Assembly: GCA_007695095.1 (NCBI GenBank)
Contig: REEL01000065.1
Span: 1-33,778, forward strand
Reading direction: 5' to 3'
DNA from: Chitinophagaceae bacterium
GTDB lineage: Bacteria; Bacteroidota; Bacteroidia; Chitinophagales; REEL01
Length of the DNA stretch: 33,778 nucleotides
Under the pieces are notes generated by a model. That model saw nothing but the letters and a program-made list of their open reading frames with translations, did no database searches and was not told the origin of the DNA. Each line of letters starts with the position of its first letter. Positions within the stretch are counted from its first letter, which is position 1. Below are positions 1 to 1,721 of the stretch, piece after piece. The position numbers were made by a program, and so were the translations under genes.

Positions 1-142
1 CTCAAATTCTAAGCGTTCCTGTTTTCTTGTTTTATTGGACAACCCCTCAAGGCCCGATTAACAGCACGACAGGCTTTTTTATTTATATTTTGGATAAACT
101 TCAAGCTTAAAGACCTTAAAGAAGCCATTTCGCAGAAGGAAT

Positions 143-270
143 GCGGCCTTTATTCCGGACTTGGGGCACCCGCTGCTTGAATCTTGCGTGAAAAATTTTA
201 CTGTTCGACGCAAGGAGTTTAAAATTTTTAGCAAGTGAAAGCATAGCGGGTCAAGGAGGAATTCAGCCGC
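143..270. repeat. Long imperfect inverted repeat (about 128 nt) in intergenic DNA
   Basis: Nested complementary arms can be traced by eye: 143-147 with 266-270, 152-156 with 258-262, 160-163 with 252-255, 168-174 with 245-251, 175-178 with 239-242, and a long inner arm 183-200 with 220-237 that has one bulged base. A competing small hairpin (183-189 with 208-214, seven perfect pairs) shares the inner left arm, so two mutually exclusive folds exist. The stretch is richer in G+C than its surroundings and lies downstream of purT, which is on the minus strand. It could be a MITE/REP-like dispersed element or a structured RNA; no coding potential was seen. Structure is seen directly, identity is inferred. 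Confidence 0.7.
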
Positions 271-281
271 GATTTTTTTGT

Positions 282-310
282 TAACCCTTTTTTTCTAAAA
301 AAAAGGGTTA
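282..310. repeat. Perfect 13-bp palindrome (possible terminator for purT)
   Basis: Arms 282-294 and 298-310 are perfectly complementary (TAACCC plus seven T against seven A plus GGGTTA) around a 3-nt loop. No T-run follows the stem on either strand, so it is not a textbook intrinsic terminator. Because purT ends at 549 reading toward lower coordinates, it could still act as a late 3' end signal. It sits directly beside the long hairpin element. Confidence 0.6.
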
Positions 311-354
311 GAAAGGGCTTGATAAAACTTTTTGATAGCCCCTGCCCCCAATCC

Positions 355-413
355 GGAGATTGTCACACTTCAAGCATACGCGCAGGGCTTCCCTTTTGAA
401 GCTCACAATGACG
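355..413. repeat. Degenerate repeat resembling the GTCATTG...CAATCTCC family
   Basis: The segment begins GGAGATTGT (355-363) and ends with AAGCTCACAATGACG (399-413), partially inverted copies of one another. This resembles, in degraded form, the widespread bacterial intergenic repeat with GGAGATTGC and GCAATGAC termini. The resemblance is from memory and the internal sequence is diverged, so this is a weak call. The remaining flanks (1-142, 311-354 and 414-548) show no gene, RNA or further repeat that I can support. Confidence 0.35.
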
Positions 414-548
414 GTGTGGTGAGAGGCTGCCCTGCTCCATATTCTAACAAAAAACGGTCAATCTTATTCAGAGACGTACATTTCACAAAACCCTAAAAAA
501 CAAAATTACTCAAGAACATTTGTAAACTAAAAAAAATCAGCAGTCACT

Positions 549-1721
549 CTATTTTTTATTTACTGAAATCTGTTTTGCTGCACTCCTTGCTTTTCTTCTC
601 AACTCATGAATCTCCGTATCTACATCATCATACACAAGTGAAATGCCCATCCGTCTATATTTTTTTGTAAATGGTTTGCCAAAAATACGAATATCTGATT
701 TTTTTAATTCTAAAGCCTGAGGTAAGCCGTCATAAGAAGGCATTTCATTGCTGTCGTCTGCTGCCAAAATTACGGCTGATGCAGCTGCCCTTTCTAAGGT
801 AATCTGATGTATAGGCAGCCCGATTAAAGCCCTGAAATGTAACTCAAATTCATTCAAATTCTGAGTGCCTGCCAATGTAACCATACCGGTATCATGAGGT
901 CTCGGAGAAAGCTCCGAAAAATATACTTCATCCTCACAAATAAAAAATTCTACTCCCCATAAGCCCGCGCCACCCAAAGCTTTGGTGACTTTTTCTGCCA
1001 TTTCCTTAGCCTTTTCCAGCAAAGCAGGCTTCATATATTCCGGTTGCCAGCTTTCCATATAATCTCCCCGCTCCTGACGATGACCTATCGGAGGACAAAA
1101 TAAAATAGCTCCCTTTTTTTGAGTTACTGTCAATAAAGTTATTTCAGAATCAAAGCGAATGAATTCTTCTATAATTACTTCTTTTATGTCTCCCCTACTA
1201 CTTTCTATGGCGGTTTCCCATGCATCTAAAATATCAATCTCTTCTCTGATTATTGACTGTCCCTTCCCGGACGATGACATCAGTGGCTTAGAAACACAGG
1301 GATAACCAATCTTTTTAACCGCTTTTATAAAGGAATCCTTGGTATCTGCATATTGATAAGCAGCAGTTTTTAACCCCAATTCTTTGGCAGCTATATCCCT
1401 GATTAACTTTCTGTTCATAGTGAAATTAACAGCCTTTGCAGAAGGAACTACCTGTATTCCTTTTTCCTCAAAATCATACAATTGTTCTGTGCGTATCGCT
1501 TCTATTTCAGGTACAATAATATCCGGTTGATGCTTATTAATTATTTTACTTAACTCTTTGGCATTTAACATATCCGTCACCTCAAAATCGTCAGCAAGCT
1601 GCATCGCCGGTGCATTTTTATAATTATCAACAGCAATCACATATTGTCCCATCCTCTTTGCCGCAATGACAAATTCTTTACCCAGTTCCCCTGAACCGAG
1701 CAACATAATCTTTTTATACAT
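549..1721 (-). CDS. purT: Formate-dependent phosphoribosylglycinamide formyltransferase (PurT)
   Basis: PurT is an ATP-grasp enzyme that makes formyl-GAR from GAR, formate and ATP, the folate-independent third step of purine synthesis. The protein aligns by eye with E. coli PurT along its whole length: N-terminal [18 protein letters not shown], the ATP-grasp stretch [34 protein letters not shown], and the metal/substrate segment [15 protein letters not shown] place the start at 1721 (MYKKIMLLG), giving about 390 residues, close to the 392 of E. coli. An in-frame ATG at 1751 would lie inside the putative promoter element 1749-1756 and adds only a non-conserved F/K-rich leader. The gene is 133 bp downstream of the TlpA-like gene and probably transcribed alone. 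No other pur genes are nearby. Confidence 0.95.

Follow-up and report, generated by a model that had tools for sequence, protein, structure and literature searches.

A dispersed hairpin repeat downstream of purT in a Chitinophagaceae genome and a putative family of structured, mostly intergenic elements in Bacteroidota

Results

The locus and its hairpin

The stretch of DNA analysed here, referred to as the window, comprises 33,778 nucleotides of a Chitinophagaceae genome (hereafter the own genome) which is 3.49 Mb in size and divided into 186 contigs. The gene purT lies on the minus strand at positions 549-1751, with matches to ATP-grasp (188.5 bits) and PurT_C (58.4 bits). As the gene ends before the element described below, the element is located downstream of purT and, in its plus orientation, is antisense to the purT transcript.

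On the plus strand, positions 143-270 fold end to end into one interrupted hairpin of 43 pairs in seven helices, with a computed energy of -47.0 kcal/mol. None of 200 shuffled sequences was as stable (mean -33.56, sd 3.71; z = -3.62), so the 128-nt hairpin noticed in the sequence-only reading is real. From the outside inwards, the helices of the computed fold pair 143-147 with 266-270, 152-156 with 258-262, 160-163 with 252-255, 168-178 with 239-251, 183-187 with 231-235, 191-200 with 220-229 and 204-206 with 214-216. The stem segments line up as had been described, but the limits of 143-270 are too narrow, as the family element continues to about 310-316. We place the whole element at 145-310 on the plus strand, consisting of a GGCC start, the hairpin, an apex and a tail hairpin; its match to a covariance model of relatives (R2, see below) covers 165-310, and the start at 145 was set by eye from the relatives. 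The apex, at 201-220, reads CTGTTCGACGCAAGGAGTTT; it has diverged from CTGTTTGAGCGNAGCGAGTTT, the family apex seen in the relatives. The 3′ tail (271-316) begins with a T-run, which is followed by a hairpin pairing 282-294 with 298-310, a 13-nt inverted repeat with 100% complementarity.

The same reading had suggested that the hairpin takes two mutually exclusive folds and could act as an RNA switch downstream of purT. In favour of such a switch, positions 183-189 (CTTGCGT) are perfectly complementary to 208-214 (ACGCAAG) and can pair with them. However, when the folding energies of both forms were compared, the best fold containing this pairing reached -41.3 kcal/mol, 5.7 kcal/mol weaker than the main fold, and the pairing had an ensemble probability of 0.001. 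One of the seven pairs of this helix is also broken, without compensation, in three of the seven distinct own-genome copies (eight aligned). In the main fold, 98.6% of cells are paired across the same eight aligned copies. Copies of the element also adjoin many different genes. We rejected the switch because the alternative helix is weak and is not conserved among copies; a purT switch with two exclusive folds now seems scarcely credible. No double compensatory changes were found among the own-genome copies of the main hairpin, these copies being too alike.

A terminator scan of window positions 1-600 did not report the hairpin at 143-270, which is excluded by the loop limits of the scan, and returned only a short hairpin at 130-146, with 0.6 expected. 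A promoter scan returned two weak promoter-like sites in the AT-rich inner stem.

A mosaic repeat in the own genome

Positions 143-270 represent one of several copies of a non-coding hairpin repeat which is dispersed through the genome. Searching the own genome with the 128-nt query gave 23 matches, of which eight were full length (94-100% identity, including the window) and 15 were partial. The suggestion that it is a mobile repeat is borne out as far as this genome-wide copy search and the family across the phylum are concerned; movement of the copies was not observed directly. Full or partial matches to window positions 1-320 were found at 41 places in the own genome, although some of these were only self-matches of the palindrome at 282-310.

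Mapping of these stretches revealed a mosaic repeat with modules in the order A, B, C and D, cut at various points. In the window, all on the plus strand, module B (positions 1-142, placed by own-genome matches in the order A-B-C-D) is followed by module C, which is the main hairpin (143-270), by module D, which is the tail (271-316), and by module A (317-436). Module A is a separate dispersed repeat (GAGATTGTCACACTTCAAGC...GCTCACAATGACGG) with 21 own-genome matches to window positions 310-450, and it precedes module B in other own-genome copies. Module B contains a truncated second family member, the 5′ arm of which lies at 13-54 on the minus strand, head to head with the first; the limit at 54 is inferred from alignment coordinates on contig C136. 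Window positions 13-284 align with C136:32389-32659 (plus strand), and C136:32224-32430 (minus strand) is a complete member of this second type, with the best R2 score in the own genome (42.8 bits) and a 5′ arm corresponding to window positions 54-13 on the minus strand.

The neighbours of the own-genome copies were ordinary genes and some toxin-antitoxin genes (PIN, DUF4160/DUF2442), and many copies stand singly between ordinary genes. A Por_Secre_tail protein was also detected (40.5 bits), and this protein together with the named carriers of the element points to Bacteroidota as the phylum of the host. At least four copies end at contig ends (C127, C122, C111 and C43), and the hairpin repeat accounts for some of the contig breaks in this genome.

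Relatives of the element

A DNA search of 59 genomes, including the own genome, gave a single foreign match of 24 bases. A covariance model built from the own-genome copies (R1) was run over 396 genomes of the order, again including the own genome, and gave two foreign hits which both have the core around the apex in common. The apex pattern CTGTTTGAGCGNAGCGAGTTT, allowing at most one mismatch, had 98 matches (summed over the table) in 24 of the 396 genomes, compared with one for the reversed control; 25 of these matches were in genome G121. The flanks of the apex matches have a common anatomy of a GGCC start, a long hairpin, the apex, CAGCCTTGATTTTT and a tail hairpin with ATCAAG in its loop.

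Seventy-one distinct copies were obtained, of which 27 were dropped by hand because they were truncated or had different flanks or a different tail; seven of the remaining 44 had no anchor, leaving 37. Together with L117, L125 and L138 these gave an alignment of 40 rows, in which L129 was re-anchored by eye. The 5′ arm was 52-59 nt long in 35 of the 37 copies, the exceptions being L113 (48 or 56 nt) and L129 (65 nt, from the wrong anchor), and the 3′ arm was 45-51 nt long in all 42 copies with a tail. Shared features of the family, whose members are 165-200 nt long, are arms of mostly 52-59 nt on the 5′ side and of 45-51 nt on the 3′ side, together with a conserved apex, a junction reading CAGCCTTGATTTTT and the tail hairpin. 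The arms of the window copy (57 nt and 46 nt, counted by hand) are within these ranges.

A second covariance model (R2) was constructed from 16 relatives in the 40-row alignment and contains no own-genome letters. It matched window positions 165-310 over the full model length (31.5 bits, E = 1.2e-4 in 72 kb searched). Against 228 kb of own-genome stretches it gave six hits at E ≤ 0.01, all on these repeats, and hit four of the eight full-length copies. Among seven own-genome copies of the window's type in the 72-kb set, four were found at E ≤ 0.01 and two at 0.015 and 0.13, while one was unlisted at E ≤ 1. R2 also missed L094, a foreign hit of R1. As the model scores the window copy but misses some own-genome copies and L094, the link to the family is real but distant. 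Its anatomy and model scores place the window copy, in diverged form, in a family of mostly intergenic, structured elements spread across Bacteroidota, and we are confident that the hairpin at 143-270 is a dispersed repeat belonging to this apex-and-tail family. The canonical apex CTGTTTGAGCGNAGCGAGTTT had no matches in the own genome at ≤ 1 mismatch, where the window carries CTGTTCGACGCAAGGAGTTT.

Across the 395 genomes of the phylum that were searched, which represent 171 genera, R2 found members at E ≤ 1e-4 in 50 genomes and 26 genera, the own genome being counted through its second type; seven candidates were scored per genome, so copy numbers are lower bounds. We read 21 of the R2 loci: 20 had the tail (3 in a variant form) and one had been read at the wrong place, and 17 of the 20 had the apex, variants counted. 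The remaining survey hits rest on score alone. R2 is able to score the opposite strand weakly because the hairpin is nearly symmetric, as in the near-palindrome L124 (196 bits forward, 40.7 bits on the reverse strand).

Members were also found on named plasmids and on viral contigs. Plasmid pHALHY01 of Haliscomenobacter hydrossis carries a family element (76.2 bits), and R2 scored 55.9 bits on the Fusobacteriota plasmid pILYOP01 of Ilyobacter polytropus and, more weakly, 31.4 bits on a Persicobacter plasmid. Two viral contigs, found by a looser pattern, scored 87.2 and 65.8 bits; none matched in a scan of viral contigs with three stricter patterns, and a comparison of phages with the element of one relative gave no match. 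A plasmid search with window positions 1-320 returned one place in Mycoplasmopsis (E = 1), which we took to be chance, and an 18-base exact scan of genome contigs returned three contigs which were alike over only 18-19 bases.

Some relatives had variant forms. Three tandem relatives at L231 8599-9558 (genome G470) have the family start and tail and lack the usual apex. In the tails of the elements at L214 and L234, and of the first and last copies at L230, the tail-hairpin loop contains an insertion of approximately 20 nt.

Covariation in the hairpin and the tail

In eight copies from a single genome (A4), 98.1% of cells pair and double compensatory changes were found in 13 of 54 pairs. The shuffled control had a mean of 5.9 (sd 1.3), with none of 500 shuffles as high as 13, and slid structures gave at most 4. 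All 13 double-changed pairs were in the central helix of 22 bp and none in the other helices. No variation at all was seen at 12 of the 13 pairs of the outer helix, at 9 of the 10 of the inner helix and at 6 of the 9 of the tail, and the apex hardly varied. This invariance may be partly a result of recent copying. When 24 sequences taken from several genomes were compared, double changes also appeared in the outer helix and in the tail hairpin. It should be noted that template-switch repair acting on imperfect palindromes is another possible source of double changes, so covariation alone is no proof of function.

Beyond the hairpin limits originally proposed, the 3′ tail of the family contains two overlapping pairings which both covary. 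As well as the tail hairpin, a CTTGAN motif can pair with NTCAAG; since this pair overlaps the tail hairpin, the two pairings either compete or form a pseudoknot. We examined 120 tails (49 of a set of 58 hits and the 71 copies), 66 of which were usable. Base 6 of CTTGAN and base 1 of NTCAAG were matched in 64 of these 66 (T-A 51, C-G 7, A-T 6, T-G 1, G-G 1), with the qualification that the other five positions were fixed by the search itself and that many tails came from the same genomes. Inspected by eye, the window copy has the hairpin 282-294/298-310 but not the CTTGAN/NTCAAG pair. With its apex diverged and one tail pairing lost, the window copy is probably no longer active by itself, to judge from its sequence.

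In the arms of the 37 anchored copies G-T pairs outnumbered A-C pairs (68 versus 41, p = 0.012; 20 copies versus 6), although the count takes in conserved positions and copies that are not independent of one another; the seven own-genome copies had one G-T and two A-C. We regard the G-T excess as weak support for a strand signal.

Genomic context

Sixty-two copies had an ORF of at least 80 aa on each side; 27 of them were located between convergent genes, 27 between co-directional genes and 8 between divergent genes. The orientation of the co-directional copies was 17 versus 10, which is not decisive. There was no recurrent neighbour gene among the 62 copies, the largest shared gene cluster having four members.

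Several genomes contained arrays. At L223, five same-strand copies are found among glycosyltransferase and radical SAM genes, each 13-91 bp after an ORF on the same strand. At L225-L226 (genome G621), eight copies and one reversed copy are found close to genes for Fic, AAA ATPase and toxin-antitoxin proteins, and an ATPase gene which is present there twice has an element beside it each time. Six tandem elements occupy one gap at L230 9281-11367 (genome G593) and share their spacers, so local duplication explains this cluster.

In two species of one genus, both elements of an orthologous region were present in both species, which fits stable inheritance; the middle helix was changed in one copy, possibly via gene conversion. 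No empty sites were found, with one orthologous pair seen.

Discussion

How the element may spread

Our explanation, which we hold to be somewhat likelier true than false as a whole, is that this is a non-autonomous dispersed element which is kept as a folded single strand, is left mostly at the 3′ ends of genes and relies on a mobilising enzyme acting in trans. The element would spread as a non-autonomous unit, with a putative trans-acting enzyme recognising the folded single strand as either RNA or DNA. The sequence-fixed helices, the apex and the tail would be the parts recognised, and the central helix would act as a spacer. Copies would persist mainly between convergent or co-directional genes because a folded 3′ end does least harm there, and such an end may stabilise or terminate transcripts. 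For single-strand mobilisation as such, we consider the chances to be slightly less than even. No mobiliser was found linked to the copies, nor did we see an empty site, a target duplication or terminal repeats. Tandem clusters can arise from plain duplication.

A bolder version, which we consider rather unlikely, is that of a mobile element found throughout the phylum which consists of the folded strand alone: 165-200 nt with a fixed outer and inner helix and apex, a free but paired centre and two overlapping, covarying tail pairings. It would be copied in trans through single-stranded RNA or DNA, would have crossed into Fusobacteriota and may help gene modules to move. The last suggestion comes from the same-orientation arrays in toxin-antitoxin, Fic and polysaccharide regions. 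If our explanation is right, Rfam release 15 lacks a structured element that is widespread in a major bacterial phylum, the combination of fixed ends and apex with a free paired middle provides a handle for finding the binding protein, and the element has a bearing on how hairpin repeats lacking their own transposase are able to spread.

The element could instead be a structured RNA working in place, that is a putative 3′ UTR, stabilising or terminator-like element (a long hairpin followed by CAGCCTTGATTTTTT) which is selected for its folding and has spread passively, either with horizontally moved gene modules or by duplication. The preference for gaps between convergent and co-directional genes, the excess of G-T over A-C in the arms, the covariation in the A4 copies, the five copies which closely follow same-strand ORFs at L223 and the orthologous copies in two species speak for such an RNA. 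On the other hand, no neighbour gene recurs, the orientation among co-directional genes is indecisive, the terminator scan did not return this hairpin (though its loop limits exclude it) and multi-copy bursts within one genome, such as the 25 apex matches in G121, point to copying. We consider an in-place RNA to be somewhat unlikely, though to be taken seriously. Movement as a REP/REPIN-like element by a Y1 transposase (RAYT), perhaps of the Bacteroidetes TnpA subclass 2.6, appears improbable. Genes of this subclass are described, in the consulted part of the source, as having atypical flanking structures with copies elsewhere in the genome (PMC6006769), the head-to-head pairs of our element resemble REPINs, and one of two Y1_Tnp genes in the own genome encodes a RAYT-like Y1 protein of 195 aa with NHLH and YIHNNP motifs, with a truncated element copy approximately 2.8 kb away on the same 3.9-kb contig. 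However, the palindrome on either side of this Y1 gene is a different one, GTCCGTAGCG...CGCTACGGAC, and no GTAG/CGTC foot was seen at the foot of the element in the alignments read. Eleven loci, among them RAYT loci from four of the seven plasmid records and one viral contig, gave no R2 hit at E ≤ 0.05, but the sensitivity of R2 is limited, as it misses the truncated copy in this set. A tblastn search of 238 loci with the two own Y1 proteins gave none in the loci fetched for the relatives' copies, although distant Y1 proteins could escape it; what it matched were the loci of these two proteins themselves, the RAYT locus L238 and two loci, L102 and L103, that had been picked up through weak DNA matches and contain no R2 hit. 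The palindrome occurs on both sides of the RAYT-like gene at L181 3104-3691 (G000:C101), and part of it is also present upstream of the C136 element copy.

Being short, non-coding, palindromic and multi-copy, the element might also be a MITE moved via terminal inverted repeats by a DDE transposase. In 63 copies, however, flanking arms outside the hairpin matched their own partner hardly better than the flanks of other copies (mean scores 15.6 versus 14.4), and in 30 copies there was no excess of target duplication (mean longest direct repeat 2.03 versus 2.41 in shuffled pairs), which makes a MITE very improbable. Integron attC sites have the core sites GTTRRRY and RYYYAAC and a variable terminal loop. 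An attC-like recombination site would agree with the same-orientation copies which, in some genomes, have toxin-antitoxin, Fic, AAA or polysaccharide genes between them; many copies, however, stand alone between ordinary genes, and reading the alignment by eye we saw no GTTRRRY/RYYYAAC pair at the element ends. A model of the integron integrase found nothing in the own genome over the curated cut-off, its best match (90.9 bits) being in a reading frame cut by a contig end, and we see very little prospect of an attC-like origin. This frame, for a tyrosine recombinase, is at L074 2673-3440 and runs off the end of G000:C149.

Comparison with known systems

The element resembles attC sites in being an imperfect hairpin of similar length for which pairing matters and which occurs in same-orientation arrays; it differs in that no core sites or linked integrase were seen and in that its apex is conserved, whereas the attC loop is variable. 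The ERIC sequences, or intergenic repeat units, of enterobacteria are not known to have a mobiliser of their own, and none was found for our element. These units (RU-1 of 127 bp and RU-2 of 168 bp, from the part of PMC2759123 consulted) are similar in size and are likewise intergenic, non-coding, palindromic and multi-copy. Going by that part of the source, our element differs from them in phylum and sequence and in having a conserved apex, a covarying central helix of free sequence and a tail with two overlapping pairings. REPs are 20-40 bp long with a GTAG or CGTC end (PMC3733652), and the REP/BIME/REPIN and RAYT systems share with the element an intergenic location, mostly between convergent or unidirectional genes, head-to-head pairs, tandem clusters and G-T pairs in the stem (PMC3733652, PMC6006769, in the sections consulted). 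Compared with REPs as presented there, the element is far longer at 165-200 nt, no GTAG/CGTC foot was recognised and no linked RAYT was found. Bacterial MITEs, including RUP, NEMIS and Nezha, are 70-300 bp long, have no coding capacity and may have folded transcripts (PMC3733652, same sections); these likenesses hold for our element, in which the terminal repeats of 15-30 bp and the target duplication given there for MITEs were not detected. By analogy, the element may work like the ERIC, REP and MITE repeats, but the defining features of REP/RAYT, MITE and Rfam families for which we tested were not found in it.

At the gathering score, Rfam release 15 gave no matches in the window and none in 20 loci from relatives. 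Low-score listings in the window (CRISPR-DR17, Flavo-1 and others) were taken as chance or as separate features, as were the listings on the hairpins of two relatives, namely Phage_pRNA and MIR2619, the latter at 35.3 bits with a gathering score of 113. A search of the open literature with apex and tail strings and by topic, with subscription papers and supplements outside its scope, found no published description of this hairpin family, although one may exist in print. The computed motif Flavo-1 RNA (RF01705) is a structured motif which, like our element, is widespread in Bacteroidetes with no clear function; in the consulted parts of PMC2864571 and PMC9723704 it is also reported to show no strand preference over transcribed regions. 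Its consensus is a different one and its best match in the window scored 19.1 bits, compared with a gathering score of 42. Flavo-1 also scored 34.3 bits, again below its gathering score of 42, at L125 618-727 on the minus strand, close to an element but separate from it.
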